Origin: Candidatus Methylacidiphilales bacterium
GTDB lineage: Bacteria > Verrucomicrobiota > Verrucomicrobiia > Methylacidiphilales > JAAUTS01
Direction: 5' to 3'
Assembly (NCBI GenBank): GCA_028713655.1
Contig: JAQTNW010000019.1
Coordinates: 1-63,234 of the forward strand
Length of the DNA: 63,234 bases
Both the position numbers and the translations under genes were made by a program. Each line of letters opens with the position of its first letter. Position 1 is the stretch's first letter. Under the pieces are notes generated by a model. It worked only from the letters and a program-made list of their open reading frames with translations. It was not told the origin of the DNA and did not search any database. This document shows, in pieces, positions 2,985-51,297 of this stretch.

Positions 2985-3851
2985 ATGCCAAAATCAGTTG
3001 CCTCAAATGGGAAATTCCCGCCAAACACTCTACCCGGCACTGGAGCGAACGACTATCTATCGCTTAACAGTAAAGCCTTGCGCGAACGCTTCCTCATTGA
3101 ACATTTGTTTGTTCCTGGCGAGTTGACGCTTCATGCTGCTGAACCCGACCGGGTGATCGTCGGATCAGTGGTGCCGACCGTCAACGCCATTTCCCTGGAT
3201 TGTCCGGCGGAGCTGGGCGCGGACGGATTTTGCGCCCGGCGTGAACTGGGTGTGTTCAACCTCGGTGGGGTGGGGATGGTCACTATCGATGGGAAGACCT
3301 TCACGATGCCGCGCTTCGCATGTCTCTATGTTGGCCGTGGCGCGCGGTCGGTCTTATTCAGTAGCGCGGCGGCGCAGGAACCCGCGCAGTTCTACCTCGC
3401 CAGTTATCCCGCCCAGCACGCCTACCCGACCAGGCTGATAGGTCCTGACCAGGGCTCTGTGGCAGATCTGGGAACGGTCGAGGCCAGCAACCGTCGTCAG
3501 TTGCGAAAGATGATTCATCCAGGCGAGGTCGAGAGTTGCCAACTAGTCATGGGCTGGACACGGCTCCAGTCGGGCAGCGTCTGGAACACGATGCCACCCC
3601 ACAGGCATGCCCGTCGTTCTGAGGTCTACTGCTATTTTGACATGGCCGCAGACACCCGCGTCATCCATCTGCTGGGATGTCCGCAAGAAACCCGTCACAT
3701 TGTAGTTGCAGACCGCCAGGTTGTAATCTCACCCTCTTGGTCGATCCACGGAGGGGCCGGTACCGGACCCTACTCATTCTGCTGGGCTATGGGCGGGGAA
3801 AACCAGGATTTCGCCGACATGGATCACGTTACCATGCAGGAGCTACGCTGA
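2985..3851 (+). CDS. kduI: 5-keto-4-deoxyuronate isomerase KduI
   Basis: Converts 4-deoxy-L-threo-5-hexosulose uronate to 3-deoxy-D-glycero-2,5-hexodiulosonate in the breakdown of pectin or other unsaturated uronates, in the cytoplasm. The protein (288 aa, family about 280) is a double cupin. The metal-binding motif PPHRHARRSEVYCYF near residues 205-219 supplies two His and one Glu, with a further His in SIHGGAGT near 250. The start ATG at 2985 has an AAAGGGA ribosome-binding sequence upstream. Its TGA stop overlaps the next gene's ATG by one base (TGATG), so the two are translationally coupled, and a kduD-like gene follows. Assignment is confident. Confidence 0.93.
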   Translation: MPKSVASNGKFPPNTLPGTGANDYLSLNSKALRERFLIEHLFVPGELTLHAAEPDRVIVGSVVPTVNAISLDCPAELGADGFCARRELGVFNLGGVGMVTIDGKTFTMPRFACLYVGRGARSVLFSSAAAQEPAQFYLASYPAQHAYPTRLIGPDQGSVADLGTVEASNRRQLRKMIHPGEVESCQLVMGWTRLQSGSVWNTMPPHRHARRSEVYCYFDMAADTRVIHLLGCPQETRHIVVADRQVVISPSWSIHGGAGTGPYSFCWAMGGENQDFADMDHVTMQELR

Positions 3852-9849: not shown

Positions 9850-10015
9850 AACCGCAGATAAACGCGGGCTCAGGCATTTGCCGCGAGCAATACAAACCCC
9901 CTTTTCTTCCCCCTTGTCAGGGGGATAGATGCATCTGTTTCCAATCTAAAATGCCTTCCTTCGTGTCTTGGTGTCTTCGTGGTTAAACCAGTTTTTCCCG
10001 CGGCTTTGCGTGAGA
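9850..10015. repeat. Long extragenic repeat, copy 1 (inverted relative to 13776-13968)
   Basis: About 160 bp that reappears in inverse orientation at 13776-13968 with a small number of differences. It contains CCCCCTTGTCAGGGGG (a strong hairpin), the GTGTCTTGGTGTCTTCGTGG block and a CGCGGCTTTGCGTGAG tail of the CGCAAAG type. Both copies can encode a short run (SIPLTRGKKRGFVLLAANA) but lack ribosome-binding sites and are not believed to be genes. Confidence 0.82.
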
Positions 10016-10074: not shown

Positions 10075-10085
10075 TGCCGGACGCT

Positions 10086-10200
10086 TCTTATCAAGAGCAG
10101 CTGAGGGACTGGCCCTGTGACGCTGCGGCAACCGGATACGGCGCAAGCCGAATCGACGAGGTGCCAAACCCAGCTCCGCCAAAAGCGGAGACGGATAAGG
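10086..10200 (+). ncRNA. Class I SAM (S-box) riboswitch
   Basis: The conserved S-box core is readable in order: P1 5' strand CTTATC (10087-10092), AAGAG, the kink-turn region GAGGGA, GGCCC, TGA, GCGGCAACC, the variable P3 hairpin, AGGTGCCAAACCCAGC, the P4 hairpin CTCCGCC-aaaa-GCGGAG, and the closing P1 strand GATAAG (10194-10199). It binds S-adenosylmethionine and normally lowers expression of methionine/sulfur genes. It lies 89 bp before the ThrC-like gene. The closing GGATAAGG can alternatively pair with CTTTATCC at about 10233-10240, beside an anti-Shine-Dalgarno-like CCTCCTT; no U-tract terminator follows, so translational control is the better guess. Confidence 0.92.
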
Positions 10201-10288
10201 GAGCAGCAGACGATCTTCGTTTGTTTGTCTTCTTTATCCTCCTTGATCTGCGGCGTGTTTTGATAAGCAGAAAAAAGGTTGATAAATT

Positions 10289-12301: not shown

Positions 12302-12327
12302 TCGCGCAAAGCCGCCAAGACGCAAAG
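12302..12327. repeat. Left inverted-repeat arm of GxxExxY cassette 1
   Basis: 26-bp arm containing GCAAAGCCGCCAAGACGCAA; it matches 12718-12743 perfectly in inverse orientation. It ends one base before the GxxExxY stop codon. Confidence 0.92.
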
Positions 12328-12328
12328 G

Positions 12329-12709
12329 TCAAAGCTTGTTTACAAGCCGGGTCATTCCATCCTTGATTAAGGGCGCGCCGAAGTTGACCAGTAACCCAAG
12401 CTTGAGACGGGTTAATTTCAGATAAGCTAACAACTGCTTGCTGTGGACGGGTAATATTTGTTCTACGGATTTGAGTTCAAGAATGACCTTGTCTTCCACG
12501 ATCAAATCAGCGCGAAATGCTTCCTTGATAAAAATCTTTTCGTATTGAAGGGCTATTGGCTGTTGGCGCTTGAATTGCAAAGACCGCTTTTCAAGCTCAT
12601 ACGCCAGGATGTCTTCGTAAACAGATTCCAAAAGACCTGGGCCGAGCGTGGTGTGAATTTTATAACAAACGTTTACAACTTCTTTTGCGATTTCATTTTC
12701 AGTTTTCAT
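12329..12709 (-). CDS. GxxExxY protein (PD-(D/E)XK-like), cassette 1
   Basis: 126-aa protein of the GxxExxY family, classed with PD-(D/E)XK nuclease folds. The name motif is G25-L-L-E28-S-V-Y31. The nuclease-type core follows: D68 in FRADLIVEDK, then E78-x-K80 in VILELKS, and Q91-LLAYLKLT. Function is unknown in the literature I know; nuclease activity is inferred from the motif. The gene is tightly framed by a perfect 26-bp inverted repeat: one arm ends one base past its stop, the other begins 8 bp before its ATG. A homologue with a broken motif lies at 50871-51251 in a similar frame. Confidence 0.88.
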   Translation of the reverse strand: MKTENEIAKEVVNVCYKIHTTLGPGLLESVYEDILAYELEKRSLQFKRQQPIALQYEKIFIKEAFRADLIVEDKVILELKSVEQILPVHSKQLLAYLKLTRLKLGLLVNFGAPLIKDGMTRLVNKL

Positions 12710-12717
12710 GCCATATA

Positions 12718-12743
12718 CTTTGCGTCTTGGCGGCTTTGCGCGA
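12718..12743. repeat. Right inverted-repeat arm of GxxExxY cassette 1
   Basis: Exact reverse complement of 12302-12327, containing TTGCGTCTTGGCGGCTTTGC. It lies immediately upstream of the GxxExxY start, on the side of queA. Confidence 0.92.
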
Positions 12744-13775: not shown

Positions 13776-13968
13776 GCAAAGCCGCCAGGAGGCAAAGGCG
13801 CAAAAACGCGGGAAAACTGGTTTAACCACGAAGACACCAAGACACGAAGGAATACATTTTAGGTTGGAAACAGATGTATCCATCCCCCTGACAAGGGGGA
13901 AGAAAAGGGGGTTTGTATTGCTCGCGGCGAATGCCGGAGCCCGTGTTTATCCGCGTTCATCTGCGGTT
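13776..13968. repeat. Long extragenic repeat, copy 2
   Basis: Inverse-orientation partner of 9850-10015, including the CCCCCTGACAAGGGGG hairpin and the ACGAAGACACCAAGACACGA block, with CGCAAAG-type arms at the left end (13773-13800). The two copies bracket about 3.8 kb holding the ThrC-like operon, GxxExxY cassette 1 and queA. Confidence 0.82.
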
Positions 13969-15010: not shown

Positions 15011-15040
15011 TGTTCTCCCGCTCGCGACGGATGTCGCGAG
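15011..15040 (-). repeat. 30-bp palindromic repeat CTCGCGACATCCGTCGCGAG, copy 1
   Basis: Read on the minus strand, CTCGCGACATCCGTCGCGAG followed by CGGGAGAACA; the first part is an 8-bp-arm hairpin. A second copy, 28 of 30 identical, is at 28883-28912. The surrounding 15011-15134 has further nested inverted arms (TTCTCCCGC/GCGGGAGAA; AACCTGCTTA/TAAGCAGGTT), the last overlapping the kinase stop codon. Confidence 0.7.
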
Positions 15041-15132
15041 TGATAACCTGCTTACCCTCGGAGCTTTCATCCCTGCCTGCGGGAGAAAACAAAGGGGGGG
15101 AGAATTCCCATGAGGCGTGTGAGATAAGCAGG

Positions 15133-26296: not shown

Positions 26297-27787
26297 TTGC
26301 CGTTAAAAGGAGTGTCAGCCATAGCTTTGGATGGAGTTTATCCGGCCATGCTTTTCAGCAATTATAAAACAGAGGGCTTCTTCGATGAGATGTTCAATGG
26401 CAATGCACAGCTCCGCCCGCATTACAAACAGTTGTTTGCCTGCGTCAATGAACTGAGCAAAAAGGATTTCGCCCAGAAACGCCAGGCGGTGGATCTAAGT
26501 TTCCTGCGCATGGGCGTGACGTTCACCGTCTATGGCGACCAGGAGGGGACCGAGCGCATATTCCCCTTCGACCTGATTCCGCGCATCATCCCGAACAAGG
26601 AATGGCAGGTTTTGGAAAAGGGCCTCAAGCAACGCATCACGGCGCTGAATCTCTTTTTGCACGATCTCTACCACGAGCAGCGGATTTTGAAGGAAGGCGT
26701 GATCCCAGCTTCATACGTTTTGTCCGCCCGGCATTTTCGCCGCGAATTTATGAACTTCCGCGTGCCGCGCGACATTTACATCCACATTTGCGGCACGGAC
26801 CTGATCCGGGACAACGACGGCACGTACATGGTGCTCGAAGACAATGCGCGCAGCCCTTCGGGTGTTTCCTACCTTTTGGAGAACCGACAGGCGATGAAGC
26901 GGGCCTTCCCCAATTTTTTTGAAAAAATAGGCGTGCGGCCGGTGGACCACTACGCGGCGGATCTTCTGGCCACCCTGCGCCATATTGCCCCCGGCGGGAA
27001 GGAAAATGCGACGGTGGTGGTGTTGACGCCGGGTATTTACAACAGCGCCTATTTTGAGCATTGCTTTCTGGCCAGGGAAATGGGCGTGCCGATTGTGGAA
27101 GGCCGGGACCTGGTCGTGCGCGATGCGAAGGTGTATATGCGGACAACCAAGGGCCTGCAGCAGGTGGACGTGATCTACCGGCGGATCGATGATGATTTTT
27201 TGGACCCCATGGTTTTTCGCCGGGACTCGTCCCTCGGTGTCCCGGGGCTGGTCAGCGCGTACAAGGCGGGCCAGGTGAGCCTGGCCAATTCCATCGGCAC
27301 CGGCGTCGCGGACGACAAGGTGATGTATTATTTTGTGCCGCGCATGATCAAGTTTTACCTGGGCGAAGACCCGATCCTTCCCAATGTGCCGACCTATTTG
27401 CCGAACGAAAAACAAGACAGGAAATATGTCCTGGAAAACCTTCCCAAGCTGGTGGTCAAGGCCGCCAATGAGGCGGGCGGTTATGGGATGTTGATAGGGC
27501 CGAAAGCCACAAAGACCGAGCTGGCCGATTTCAAGAGAAAGGTTGAAGCCGAACCGCGCAACTATATTGCGCAACCGACCATTTCGCTTTCCCGCCATCC
27601 GACCTGCTGCGATGCCAGGGCGGAGGGGCGGCATATTGATTTGCGCCCGTACATCCTGTATGGCGACAAAATCCGCATTGTGCCGGGCGGCCTGACCCGT
27701 GTGGCGTTGAAAAAGGGTTCCCTGGTGGTAAATTCCTCCCAAGGCGGGGGGAGCAAGGACACCTGGGTGCTGTTTGGAGACGAATAA
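26297..27787 (+). CDS. Circularly permuted ATP-grasp type 2 protein (DUF404/407)
   Basis: About 496 aa. The N-terminal [18 protein letters not shown] and the central [26 protein letters not shown] identify the circularly permuted ATP-grasp family; [16 protein letters not shown] and [20 protein letters not shown] complete the ATP-binding parts. It is predicted to form an amide-type bond on an unknown peptide-like substrate. The start is uncertain: TTG 26297, TTG 26327 after AAGGAG, or ATG 26348. It ends one base into the alpha-E gene, so they are coupled. The transglutaminase and proteasome-like genes often found with this pair are absent. Confidence 0.85.
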
Positions 27788-28791
27788 TGCTGTCACGCGT
27801 GGCCGATTCGCTGTATTGGATGAGCCGTTATCTCGAGCGGGCTGAAAATATTGCCCGCATCGTGGACGTCAACCTGCAGTTGCTCCTGGATTTTCAGGGA
27901 ATGGACGACAAAAAACTCGAGGAACACTGGGAGCCGCTGGTCAAGAGCCTGGGGGATGAGAAGCTGTTCCAAAAACTGTATAAAAAATCCGACAGCCGGA
28001 CTGTGACAGATTTTTTGACCTTCAACAAAAAAAATCCAAACTCGATTTTGTCCTGCCTGATCCTGGCCCGTGAAAACGCCCGCAGCGTGCGCGATCAAAT
28101 CTCGCTTGAAATGTGGGAGGAGATCAACCGGTTGTATCTGTTCATCCGTTCGACCAATGCGAAGGAGGTGTGGTCGCGCGGGCCGTATGATTTCTACCGG
28201 GAGATCAAGCAGAGTTCCTATCTTTTCCAGGGATTGACGAGCGCCACGGTCACGCACGACGAGGGGCGGGAATTTTCCCAGGTCGGGCGTTTTCTCGAGC
28301 GGGCGGACATGACCTCGCGCATTCTCGACGTGAAATACCACATTCTGCTCCCCAGCGCGCTGGATGTGGGCGGGGAGATCGACACCGTCCAGTGGGCGGC
28401 GGTGTTGCGTTCGTGCAGCGCCTATGAGGCCTATCAACAGATGTACGCATCGGACCTCGTGCCGTGGAAGGTGGCCCAATTCCTCATTTTTGGCGACCTG
28501 TTTCCGCGCTCCATCCGCTTTTGCGTCCGGACCCTGGATTATTCCCTGCACCGCGTTTCGGGGAGCGCTGTCGGCTTTTTTTCCAACTCCGCGGAAAAAT
28601 TATCCGGACGGCTGGTTTCGGACCTTACCTATGCCGGCATCGAGGACGTGTTGAAAACCGGGCTGCACGAATATCTGGATCAGATCCAACTCAAGCTGAC
28701 CGAGATTGGCAGTGCGGTTTTTGAAAATTACATCTTCTTCGGGCAAACGAATATCGAGGAGGAAATCCAGATACAGCAACAGCAACAGTGA
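27787..28791 (+). CDS. Alpha-E domain protein (DUF403)
   Basis: 334-aa all-helical alpha-E protein: [21 protein letters not shown] at the N-terminus is the family hallmark, repeated in variant form near residue 170 (VGRFLERADMTSRILDVKYH). Always found beside circularly permuted ATP-grasp proteins, and presumed to be part of the same peptide-modifying system. Ends in a Gln-rich tail (QIQQQQQ). Confidence 0.9.
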   Translation: MLSRVADSLYWMSRYLERAENIARIVDVNLQLLLDFQGMDDKKLEEHWEPLVKSLGDEKLFQKLYKKSDSRTVTDFLTFNKKNPNSILSCLILARENARSVRDQISLEMWEEINRLYLFIRSTNAKEVWSRGPYDFYREIKQSSYLFQGLTSATVTHDEGREFSQVGRFLERADMTSRILDVKYHILLPSALDVGGEIDTVQWAAVLRSCSAYEAYQQMYASDLVPWKVAQFLIFGDLFPRSIRFCVRTLDYSLHRVSGSAVGFFSNSAEKLSGRLVSDLTYAGIEDVLKTGLHEYLDQIQLKLTEIGSAVFENYIFFGQTNIEEEIQIQQQQQ

Positions 28792-28800
28792 CAAACTGCA

Positions 28801-29025
28801 TTTCCTCGCGCAAAGACGCCAAGGCGCAAAGGAAAGCCATTCTTAACATGAAGGCAAAAGCGAATGGGGAGTTTATCGCAAACTCGCGCCATCCGTCGCG
28901 AGCAGGAGAACACAAAAATCACAAAGAAACATGTGCGTAAAACTAAGAACGATTTTTCTTTGCTCTGTGGCTAACCCTCAGCAGTTTTTGTCTTCCTTTG
29001 CGCCTTGGCGTCTTTGCGTGAGGAA
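28801..29025. repeat. ORF-less element bounded by CGCAAAG-family inverted arms
   Basis: Left arm 28801-28835 and right arm 28993-29025 are nearly perfect inverted repeats sharing CGCAAAGACGCCAAGGCGCA. The 157 bp between contain no gene but include palindromic repeat copy 2 at 28883-28912. Same arm type as that framing the GxxExxY genes, so it looks like a non-autonomous or deleted relative. Confidence 0.75.
28883..28912 (+). repeat. 30-bp palindromic repeat CTCGCGCCATCCGTCGCGAG, copy 2
   Basis: 28 of 30 identical to the reverse complement of 15011-15040; carried inside the ORF-less CGCAAAG element. Confidence 0.7.
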
Positions 29026-29085
29026 TGATTTTATTCCCCGGGGAAGGTTTTGACACTGCCGGGAAATGGGCAAGAATCCCATCCC

Positions 29086-30225
29086 ATGCCGCCACGCATT
29101 GTAATTGGAGTGGGAATCGCCGGTTATCCGGTTTCTGCGGCGGGTACCACATGGTGTTTTTTCCAGTGGGTGCTGGGCTTTCGTTCCGCGGGATGGGATG
29201 TCTGGATGGTGGAGGATATCCCGGGCGACAAATGTGTGGGTTGGGATGGCGCCCCCGCAGCTTTTGAGCAAAGCGCCAATCGCGCGCACTGGGAGCGGAT
29301 CGTTCGTGAATTTGGATTGGAGGGCCGCGCCACCCTGCTGGTTGACGGGAAATCCGAGGAGAAAAAGTCGCTGCTCGACTTCGCTTCGGGAGCGGATCTG
29401 TTTCTGAATATCTCCGGCCATTTTAAAAACAAAGCGGTGCTGCGCGCGCCGAAGCGCCGGATTTATCTGGACCTCGATCCGGCCTTTACGCAGATATGGG
29501 CGGCTGTGTATGGCGTGGACATGAATTTTGGAGGGCACGAATTATTTTTCACGGTCGGTGGTCTGCTGAACCGGCCCGACTGCCGCGCTCCCAAATTGGA
29601 TCGCGAATGGTTTGTCACACTGCCTCCGGTAAATCTTGAACCCTGGTCTCCGGGCAACATCGCGCCGGGGGATGCGTTCACGACAATGACGCATTGGTAT
29701 GGGTATCCTCCGGCGGAATATCAGGGTCAGTGGTATGGCAATAAATCCGAGGAATTTGAAAAAATAACGGATCTCCCGCGCCAGACTCGCGCGCAGCTTG
29801 AAATCGCGACCGATCTTTCGCCCGGGCAGGATGAGTATGAGGCGTTTACCCGTGCCGGTTGGCGGCTTGTAAAGGCAGCGCCGCTGAACGAACCATGGCA
29901 ACGTTACCGGGATTATCTGGCGGGAAGCAAAGGCGAGTTTTGCGTCGCAAAAAACGGTTATGTGCGTTCGCGTTGCGGCTGGTTCAGCGACCGCAGCGTC
30001 TGCTACTTGTCTCTGGGCCGCCCCGTAATCCTGCAGGATACCGGCTGGACCGAAATGCTTCCGGCGGGCGAGGGGTTGCTTCCGTTTCAAGACATGGCTT
30101 CGGCCGCCCGCGCGTTGGAGACGGTATTGTCGGATGAGGAACGGCACCGTCGCGCCGCCCGGAAGATAGCCGAGGAGTATCTCGACGCGCGCAAGGTTGT
30201 GGAGCGGATGGTCGGCAGGATTTGA
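29086..30225 (+). CDS. GT-B-like glycosyltransferase family protein
   Basis: 379-aa protein. The start [19 protein letters not shown] and the C-terminal [20 protein letters not shown] with [17 protein letters not shown] resemble the two halves of GT-B glycosyltransferases (sugar-nucleotide site near the C-terminus). ATG 29086 was chosen because the 12 codons before it are intergenic in character. It lies just before UDP-xylose synthase, so transfer of xylose or glucuronate to an exopolysaccharide or cell-surface glycan is plausible. Donor and acceptor are not readable. Confidence 0.65.
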
Positions 30226-45121: not shown

Positions 45122-46341
45122 TGGAAAAACACCTGCAAGTTCATTGGTGGGATGGTTCGGTTGTAGGGCATCTCATCCATCGCGGCGCGATTTACTTTGT
45201 CTATGACGAGGCATGGATCAGGCGCGGCCACAATCTTTCTCCGTTGTCGTTGCCCTTTACCAATGTGGTATTCAACGGTAGCAAAGGGATCGATGGGTTG
45301 CCGGGGCTGATTGCGGATTGCCTGCCGGATTCGTGGGGCCGTAAAGTTGCGCGCAAGGAATTTGCCCGAAACAAATGGGGAGAACCAACCTCAATGACCC
45401 TGCTCGCGTGGCGGGGAACTCGTGGCTTGGGAGCGTTGCGCTTTCTTCCTCCCCTCCAGGAAGGCTCAGGCGCGGGCCGACTCGAAACCATCAGTGCCGC
45501 AGCACTTGCCCGTGGCGCTGCTGAAATCGAGCGTGGAGAGCCGACCGAGGTTCTGGCGCAATTGGCCCAGGGTGGTACGGCCGGTGGAGCTTACCCGAAG
45601 GCCGTCGTTCTGGCCTACCCCGATGGAACTTTGAGCGTGGGCAGTCCAGACGGATTGGGTGATCCGTGCCTGCTCAAGTTTGATCTTTCCGAAGGAGGGG
45701 ACAATGCGCCATGTGAACACGCGTACGCTTTGATGGCCAGGGCGGCTGGAATCCGTGCGGTGCAAACCCGTTTGATTGAGGAGAATCCTCCGGCGAAACG
45801 CCGCCACCTCTTGGTGAAACGTTTTGATCTGCCCGACTTGAAAAAGCCGGAACGTCGTTTTCATTTCCACTCCGCCAGCGGGCTCCTGCACAAGGGCGCG
45901 GGCGATCTGGATTACCGGGATTTGTTCCGTGCGGCGATCCGGCTCAATACTCAACCCGGGGAATTGCGGGAACTGGCCCGCCGCATGGTCTTCAATGTTC
46001 TTTCATCCAATCATGACGACCATGGCAAGAACCACGCTTTTCTTTACCATGAAGAACGCAGGGAATGGTCGTTGGCGCCTGCGTACGACATGACCTACAG
46101 TTCCGGCATGCTCGAACGCGGGACGCTCGTGAACGGGGAGGTTTGGCCGACGATTGCGATAATGGAATCCCTCTGCCTGGATGCCGGTGTAACGAAAGCG
46201 GAGTTCCGGCAACTTTTTGAAAAAGTAAAAAATGCCTTGGACCAATGGAATGATTTTGCAAAGCAAAGTGGCCTTTCCGCAGCCAAGGCCCGGGAAATCC
46301 GCGAGCGGCACCTTCTCATCCAAAATCGAGTTTTGATATGA
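45118..46341 (+). CDS. hipA: HipA-like serine/threonine kinase toxin
   Basis: 407-aa kinase-fold toxin. The N-terminal DUF-type domain is followed by the kinase core: GGTAGGAYPKAVV (ATP loop), CEHAYALMARAAGIR, LVKRFDLP, the catalytic NHDDHGKNHAF and the metal-binding APAYDMTYS. HipA toxins phosphorylate aminoacyl-tRNA synthetases such as GltX and cause persistence. All catalytic residues are present, so it is the one clearly intact module in the tRNA-Ser island. Confidence 0.9.
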   Translation: MMEKHLQVHWWDGSVVGHLIHRGAIYFVYDEAWIRRGHNLSPLSLPFTNVVFNGSKGIDGLPGLIADCLPDSWGRKVARKEFARNKWGEPTSMTLLAWRGTRGLGALRFLPPLQEGSGAGRLETISAAALARGAAEIERGEPTEVLAQLAQGGTAGGAYPKAVVLAYPDGTLSVGSPDGLGDPCLLKFDLSEGGDNAPCEHAYALMARAAGIRAVQTRLIEENPPAKRRHLLVKRFDLPDLKKPERRFHFHSASGLLHKGAGDLDYRDLFRAAIRLNTQPGELRELARRMVFNVLSSNHDDHGKNHAFLYHEERREWSLAPAYDMTYSSGMLERGTLVNGEVWPTIAIMESLCLDAGVTKAEFRQLFEKVKNALDQWNDFAKQSGLSAAKAREIRERHLLIQNRVLI

Positions 46342-50842: not shown

Positions 50843-50862
50843 TTTAACGCAAAGGCGCAGGT
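50843..50862. repeat. Left arm of GxxExxY cassette 2
   Basis: TTAACGCAAAGGCGCAG just after the oppF start; related to the right arm at 51252-51297 and to the CGCAAAG family. Much shorter than the arms of cassette 1. Confidence 0.65.
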
Positions 50863-50870
50863 CTTGATTG

Positions 50871-51251
50871 TTACAGTCTATTTACCACTCGGTGGATTCC
50901 AGTTTTAAGGTATTTCTCGCCAAAATTAATCACATAGCCCAATTTTAATCCTGTTAATCTGAGGTATGTGAGCATTTGCGCTTCAAAGATTGGATTGTAG
51001 TCAGTTACGGCCTTGTTATCAATCAATACCAGTTTTTCCACCATCAGGCCTAATCGCAAGGGGTTTCCCAATTTTTTGCCCTTATACGATATGGGGACTT
51101 GTATTTGCCGTTCAACATGCAGGTTGCGCAATTCCAGTTCACAGACCATTGCCTCTTCGTAAACGACCTCCAGGAGCCCCGGGCCGCCCAGTGTTCTGTG
51201 AACTTCCACGGCACAATCGACAATAATTGTCCCAATTTCATTTTCAGTCAT
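50871..51251 (-). CDS. GxxExxY protein with damaged PD-(D/E)XK motif, cassette 2
   Basis: 126 aa, the same length as cassette 1 and clearly homologous: G25-L-L-E28-V-V-Y31 is intact. However the catalytic Asp is Gly68 (PLRLGLMVEK, codon GGC, one transition from GAC) and the Glu is Asp78 (LIDNK), so nuclease activity is doubtful. It sits in the same orientation as, and between, oppF and oppD, with short inverted arms at both ends (start codon directly abutting the right arm). Confidence 0.85.
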   Translation of the reverse strand: MTENEIGTIIVDCAVEVHRTLGGPGLLEVVYEEAMVCELELRNLHVERQIQVPISYKGKKLGNPLRLGLMVEKLVLIDNKAVTDYNPIFEAQMLTYLRLTGLKLGYVINFGEKYLKTGIHRVVNRL

Positions 51252-51297
51252 TTTGCGTCTCTGCGTCTTATGCCCTCTGCGTTAAAGTTTTGCGTTA
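51252..51297. repeat. Right arm of GxxExxY cassette 2
   Basis: TTTGCGTCTCTGCGTCTTAT then GCCCTCTGCGTTAAAG and TTTTGCGTTAAACG; its end overlaps the oppD stop codon. Uninterrupted form of the repeat that is split by the hairpin element at 14001. Confidence 0.7.

Follow-up and report, generated by a model that had tools for sequence, protein, structure and literature searches.

The gene-free unit at 28802-29025 of the window (the whole 63,234-nucleotide stretch of Candidatus Methylacidiphilales DNA that was analysed) has an even chance, in our estimate, of belonging, as a miniature, ORF-less and non-autonomous form, to a family of inverted-repeat inserts that at full size include a GxxExxY gene. 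Such inserts between genes look like a large and apparently undescribed class whose members replace one another at corresponding sites in related species. A preliminary description of the window had proposed a miniature, non-autonomous, dispersed element. Part of that proposal stands: an ORF-less class exists in relatives, arm type follows both protein and lineage, and sites are found empty, exchanged or inverted. Against the simple reading as a MITE, most of the 42 arm places in the genome are solitary, the unit is single-copy, and no consistent target duplication was seen.

The unit is bounded by two outer arms (Table 1), each consisting of TTCCTCG or a variant of it, followed by the three heptamers CGCAAAG, CGCCAAG and CGCAAAG at a period of 8. 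The arms had been called nearly perfect, and they are indeed 97% complementary over 33 nt (28802-28834 and 28993-29025). Within 28601-29225, the repeat between these arms is the sole inverted repeat of at least 12 nt. Their tandem periodicity, 0.52 at period 8 with a cut at 0.50, lies barely above the 95th percentile of shuffles. The interior, also described as gene-free, comprises 158 nt and is too short for a gene. A decayed GxxExxY gene in this interior was rejected, since tblastn with 67 GxxExxY proteins gave a best E value of 0.035 and no significant match. The assignment of the arms to a GxxExxY type is likewise upheld. By direct reading, the unit arm has 24 of 26 letters in common with the arms of the GxxExxY gene at 12344-12709, and it scores 44 against the flanks of that gene, compared with 12-21 against the flanks of the genome's other five GxxExxY genes.

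Table 1. Coordinates of the unit, its neighbours and the GxxExxY genes within the window.
Feature	Position	Strand	Description	Basis or occurrence elsewhere
Arm of GxxExxY unit	12302..12327	+	Same type as unit arm (24/26 letters); 26 nt, perfect pair	
GxxExxY gene, candidate partner in window	12344..12709	-	PF13366 PDDEXK_3, TIGR04256	Profile matches; model pLDDT 93.8
Opposite arm of GxxExxY unit	12718..12743	-		Inverted-repeat search
Upstream neighbour, alpha-E protein	27787..28791	+		Epimerase directly next in G001 and G010
Left outer arm	28802..28834	+	TTCCTCG, heptamers CGCAAAG, CGCCAAG, CGCAAAG at period 8, GAA	Inverted-pair search; core found at 42 genome places
Nested inner unit without ORF	28872..28974 (about)	+	Left arm CGCAAA (palindrome-interrupted), CACAAAA, CACAAAG; right arm CTTTG..CTCTGTGGC	Repeat matches; boundaries by reading
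REP-like palindrome	28882..28912	+	Directly 3' of heptamer-like CGCAAA of inner left arm	Common to 15011-15041
Right outer arm	28993..29025	-	Inverted copy, 97%	Inverted-pair search; core search
Downstream neighbour	29087..30225	+	Weak glycosyltransferase-like match	Not at this position in G001 or G010
Second GxxExxY gene	50883..51251	-	Degenerate arms, AACGCAAAGG type, at 50843-50855 and 51274-51286	

Several properties of the unit are those of a MITE: it has terminal inverted repeats and no ORF, and the genome holds a gene-bearing element with the same terminal repeats, namely that of the GxxExxY gene at 12344-12709. Many near-identical copies of the whole element, which would also be expected, are not seen, as the unit occurs once in the genome and recurrence is limited to its parts. 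No target-site duplication is obvious at the unit or at aligned empty and filled sites, where identity to the empty relative is no more than about 81%; ATAAAAA is present on both sides of the L261/L262 unit. By direct reading, 28802-29025 contains no GTAG or CTAC tag.

The interior is itself composite. It holds a smaller ORF-less unit with the layout TTTATCGCAAA / GAACACAAAAATCACAAAG ... CTTTGCTCTGTGGCTAA, versions of which occur without these outer arms on contigs C9 (about 45270-45341) and C21 (about 3187-3250), with a partial version on C35. Next to the CGCAAA of this inner unit lies a palindrome, CTCGCGCCATCCGTCGCGAGC, which had been reported as common to the unit and 15011-15040; the match is confirmed, with 28882-28912 corresponding to 15011-15041 on the opposite strand over 31 nt at 94%. 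The palindrome family (CTCCGACATCCGTCGCGAGC) has 27 copies with at most 3 mismatches in the DNA of the source genome that was analysed. An arm-type heptamer directly precedes 12 of the 27, compared with 3.3% of random places (binomial p 2e-11), as if the arms were the target of the palindrome. We read the unit as a mosaic of nested insertions, with the inner unit and the REP-like palindrome lodged between the outer arms.

The 23-nt arm core, allowing up to 3 mismatches, occurs at 42 places across the source genome, and a reversed-pattern control gave none. The search for further units with these arms, suggested in the preliminary description, succeeded for the core but returned only two inverted (inward) pairs, the unit itself and that around the GxxExxY gene at 12344-12709. 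Thirty of the arm places were checked for a partner and are mostly solitary. Because 42 places yield just two inverted pairs, the solitary arms call for another explanation. A scan for inverted pairs (score at least 36, gap 20-900) covered 583 kb of the genome, made up of the window and 26 stretches of 20 kb. It found 7 pairs, and a mirror-repeat control over the 583 kb found 0, which rules out a chance origin of the arms. Two of the 7 pairs lie in the window, and these are the two with CGCAAAG arms just named. A strict heptamer regular expression distinguished the genome only weakly from the mirror control, with 162 merged matches versus 93 over the 583 kb; a simple heptamer grammar alone is therefore a poor detector. 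The window also contains arms of another type, CACGAAGACACCAAGACACGAAG, at 13827-13849 (+) and 9959-9981 (-); these lie about 3.9 kb apart and do not form a close inward pair.

The GxxExxY protein linked to these arms matches PF13366 (E 1.7e-41), and across 67 GxxExxY proteins the catalytic residues are kept in most (D in 64, E in 60, K in 65). Structure comparison of the model (pLDDT 93.8) gave 4ic1 (SSO0001) as the best VIA match, with Z 9.0, rmsd 3.9 and 97 aligned positions, and many of the further VIA rows, at Z 5.6-7.7, are nucleases. Foldseek against the PDB returned no match at E 0.001 or better with this model, and for a defence role of GxxExxY, PADLOC gave weak matches only (best E 0.0067). 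The profile, the catalytic D..ExK and the restriction-endonuclease-like fold of the model are those of a small putative nuclease of PD-(D/E)XK fold.

Inverted arms are the rule around GxxExxY genes. TIGR04256 has 72 matches, distributed over 21 of the 62 genomes of the order, and 69 loci were tested, two fragments in G020 being left out and L014 and L015 being counted once as a single gene. Against 398 control placements elsewhere in the same loci, arm scores rank above the 95th percentile at 63 of the 69 and above the 99th at 60; the remaining 6 have no arms by the score used. The arms vary from gene to gene (CGCGGAG, CACGGAT, ACAGGATT, ACGGAATT and others), and within a locus the left arm matches the right. 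Each arm typically consists of two or three heptamer-like repeats spaced 8-10 nt apart, and 31 of 53 arms surpass the 95th percentile of shuffles in tandem periodicity. The automatic test detected no arms at the second GxxExxY gene of the window, at 50883-51251. In 52 of 66 loci, the GxxExxY gene is co-directional with its upstream neighbour (p 3e-6; 3 more loci gave no gene, and neighbours were taken roughly, as longest ORFs), as expected if read-through is needed.

The association extends beyond the order. GxxExxY proteins are present in 171 of 288 sampled genomes of the phylum, and, measured against 143 placements, 26 of 30 loci in this wider sample lie above the 95th percentile and 24 above the 99th. 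Four plasmid records, named Gemmatirosa, Bernardetia, Sphingomonas parapaucimobilis and Bacteroides finegoldii, gave flank scores of 113, 36, 33 and 45, respectively, without a separate control. In S. parapaucimobilis YK209 (L353), the GxxExxY gene sits within the fatty-acid synthesis operon, flanked by fabD and fabG, and in B. finegoldii, it sits between radA and the next gene. A scan of IMG/VR returned a single GxxExxY locus (L355, IMGVR_UViG_3300032770_000220), which has inverted CACAAAG-type arms with a score of 47. A scan of a collection of genome contigs gave only 5 GxxExxY loci, of which L316 and L318 show tandem arms by score and L319 by eye alone, with none at L317 and L320.

Relatives of the source organism carry many arm pairs that enclose no gene. 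Arm places were drawn from eight genomes: every place in six of these, 64 of 66 in G045 and 64 of 244 in G002. Among the places listed, adjacent arms within 600 nt form 36 inward, 1 outward and 15 tandem pairs. The inward pairs in this list are mostly short, 32 of the 36 being spaced at 38-190 nt, too close to hold a GxxExxY gene, and 4 at 392-480 nt. On the same scale, the unit at 28802-29025 measures 187 nt, which places it at the upper end of the short class.

Arm type follows lineage and protein. Triples of the CGC type are found in families f1, f2, f5 and f6 (f9 and f3 together add 5 isolated matches); the ACGGAATT type is confined to f9. One of these two arm types is present in 19 of the 21 genomes with GxxExxY (the exceptions being G016 and G027), as against 5 of the 41 without (G006, G014, G046, G050 and G053). 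This co-occurrence has a Fisher p of 1.6e-9, to be read with the caution that genomes of one family are non-independent, so that there are about nine independent lineages rather than 62. In G006, the control exceeds the arm count, and G046, with 30 arms and no GxxExxY found, is a genome that is 65% complete. Among the 50 genes passing the limits on arm score and length, similarity of the proteins correlates with similarity of the arms (rho 0.31, permutation p 0.0005). The correlation persists within genomes (p 0.002) and between families when labels are permuted inside families (p 0.0005). Such a correlation would fit recognition of the arms by the protein, and it would also be expected from joint inheritance.

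Comparison of the same site across close relatives shows contents that differ or are inverted. In the loci compared, G002 and G005 are about 90-98% identical, and G003 and G004 are about 79-84% identical to these two. At two orthologous pairs of loci in G002 and G005 (L103/L085 and L084/L104), the flanks are mostly 94-100% identical and the bins of the GxxExxY gene are 63-77% identical; at L084/L104, the arm type differs as well. At L115/L114, the gene bins are 98-100% identical. Other sites differ in occupancy. One (L128) is empty in G003, holds an ORF-less unit of about 112 nt with another arm type in G002, and holds a GxxExxY unit in G005, and another (L118, G002:C137) has GxxExxY in G002 and is empty in G003. 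The second GxxExxY gene of the window (50843-51286) seemingly occupies, judging by eye from the flanks, the intergenic site at which L118 lies in another genus. A further site (L135) is empty in G003, carries GxxExxY in G002, and in G005 carries, within other arms, a four-helix-bundle gene (TIGR02436, E 1.2e-32). At L111, GxxExxY lies on contig C191 of G005, which may be paralogous or foreign, and an ORF-less CGCGGAG unit occupies a site of about 84% identity on G002 C286 and G005 C47. ORF-less units change too: at L210, both genomes have one, the interiors differ, and that of G005 is nested like the unit at 28802-29025, while a CACGGAT-type unit (L221 3884-3968 versus L264) is inverted between G002 and G005, the left flank being unchanged. 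Four loci (L206, L213, L214 and L216) were uninformative, since they did not give both flanks.

The likeliest engine of these inserts, we think, would be GxxExxY itself, recognising and cutting the arms before recombination takes over. The nuclease would recognise its own arm type, either as duplex heptamers or as an extruded hairpin, and cut there. Repair or recombination would then copy, swap or invert the arm-bounded DNA, in a homing-like or transposition-like manner. ORF-less units with matching arms would be acted on in trans and may later receive further units, like the unit at 28802-29025. GxxExxY is perhaps one of several cargoes, because four-helix-bundle genes sit in similar repeats and can occupy a GxxExxY site. 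We propose, tentatively and with rather more doubt than confidence, that this amounts to a new kind of mobile element. Its arms of iterated heptamers would be read by a cognate PD-(D/E)XK (GxxExxY) nuclease, and it would insert at gene junctions, often inside operons. Its contents (GxxExxY, a four-helix-bundle protein or nothing) would be exchanged and inverted at fixed sites, and many ORF-less miniatures, the present unit included, would be spawned in trans.

These inserts share features with several known systems and are identical to none of those compared. As in the REPIN/RAYT (REPtron) and TIR-tyrosine-transposase systems, short ORF-less inverted pairs of many lineage-specific types are dispersed between genes, and related sequences flank a small gene of low copy number (one to a few). 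Unlike in either system, the linked protein has a PD-(D/E)XK fold rather than being an HUH/Y1 transposase, and the arms are tandem heptamers without a GTAG tag. The units resemble MITEs in being short and ORF-less, with terminal inverted repeats common to a gene-bearing element. They differ in that no consistent target-site duplication was seen, in lacking a common whole interior, in the exchange of site contents between relatives, and in having a partner that is not a known transposase. They share with the intervening sequences of 23S rRNA an inverted-repeat stem and an occurrence with or without a small ORF, and an S23-family four-helix-bundle gene can take the site of a GxxExxY gene. In contrast to those sequences, they lie between protein genes rather than in rRNA, and any RNA processing of them is putative. 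Lastly, homing endonuclease systems also involve a small nuclease gene apparently exchanged at a fixed site with its flanks retained. Here, however, the arms are part of the element rather than its target, the same sites are also occupied by units without an ORF or with other arms, and the cutting is putative.

No description of such inverted-repeat units was found in the literature searched, a scope outside which most subscription papers fall. Within that literature, five strings of arm letters, the phrase 'variable inverted repeats', and the combination of a four-helix-bundle protein with an inverted repeat had no match. The one paper listed for intergenic palindromic repeats in Verrucomicrobia is, judging by its title and abstract, on a different topic, and GxxExxY is mentioned in this literature only incidentally. 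The annotation of GxxExxY proteins goes no further than a name. If these proteins serve a heptamer-armed element family as its enzymes, a very common protein of obscure role would acquire a function open to testing, and the origin of many so far unexplained repeats between genes in GxxExxY genomes would be accounted for. The match between arm type and protein makes recognition testable with short oligonucleotides.

Two rival explanations accept the inserts as mobile or formerly mobile. GxxExxY could be a passenger, in inserts moved by another enzyme (an HUH/Y1 transposase, for example RAYT/TIRYT) or by host recombination, with GxxExxY and four-helix-bundle genes as interchangeable cargo. We consider this unlikely. 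The substitution of one gene for the other at L135 is what it would predict, and four-helix-bundle genes (TIGR02436, S23-like) do lie in inverted repeats of short tandem units at L260 (G005:C179), L171 and L174. In the source genome, inverted repeats of tandem subrepeats surround 2 of its 5 such genes, the other 3 having no convincing arms. Dispersed TIR families of TIR-flanked tyrosine transposases are, moreover, described (PMC3733652). Against a passenger role stands the tracking of the GxxExxY protein by arm type, within as well as between families, and, weakly, a tblastn search with E. coli RayT that found no match in 859 kb of partly overlapping DNA from the source genome. Somewhat less unlikely is that the unit is a relic, once a GxxExxY element, which was deprived of its gene by a deletion and afterwards accumulated other repeats, and so stands outside any active miniature class. 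Its single-copy state, the insertions nested in it and the predominance of solitary arms in the source genome would suit such a history. The interior, however, holds no GxxExxY remnant, and ORF-less pairs of similar short spacing are numerous in the relatives, as the 32 of 36 inward pairs at 38-190 nt among the places listed attest.

The remaining rivals place the function of the unit in RNA. The arm hairpin might be processed in read-through mRNA, in the manner of 23S rRNA intervening sequences, so that insertion into an operon does no harm, with spread by some other route. The unit has a predicted fold of -103.5 kcal/mol (z -8.9), and the co-direction of GxxExxY with the upstream gene at 52 of 66 loci is in line with read-through. 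Intervening sequences of rRNA with inverted-repeat stems and S23 (four-helix-bundle) ORFs also offer a precedent, their mobility having been proposed by some authors (PMC4990558). This account is nevertheless improbable, given that the two strands of the unit fold almost alike, as those of any inverted repeat do, that the nuclease fold points to work on DNA, and that dispersal is not explained by it alone. A position-conserved RNA gene, attenuator or terminator of the alpha-E operon would also give a strong hairpin between co-directional genes, and is now largely refuted and very improbable indeed. The unit has no Rfam match (nor does the window match any rRNA family), no terminator-like site was found at its arms, and the arm core is dispersed. 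The genomic context tells the same way. In both G001 and G010, alpha-E has the ATP-grasp and epimerase genes as immediate neighbours, with no unit in the short spacer; in the source genome, the unit and the glycosyltransferase-like gene sit between alpha-E and epimerase. Genomes G002-G006 gave no match to the alpha-E gene, and in G048, an ORF-less unit of the ACGGAATT type lies 3' of it. Since the junction lacks the unit in G001 and G010 and the unit in G048 has another arm type, the operon does not include the unit as a conserved part, and a conserved RNA gene or terminator was rejected on the Rfam, terminator and G001/G010 evidence. As a partial test, this bears out the earlier expectation that the arms are dispersed rather than conserved in position. 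Elsewhere in the window, a SAM riboswitch is predicted at 10085-10201, at the gathering threshold.
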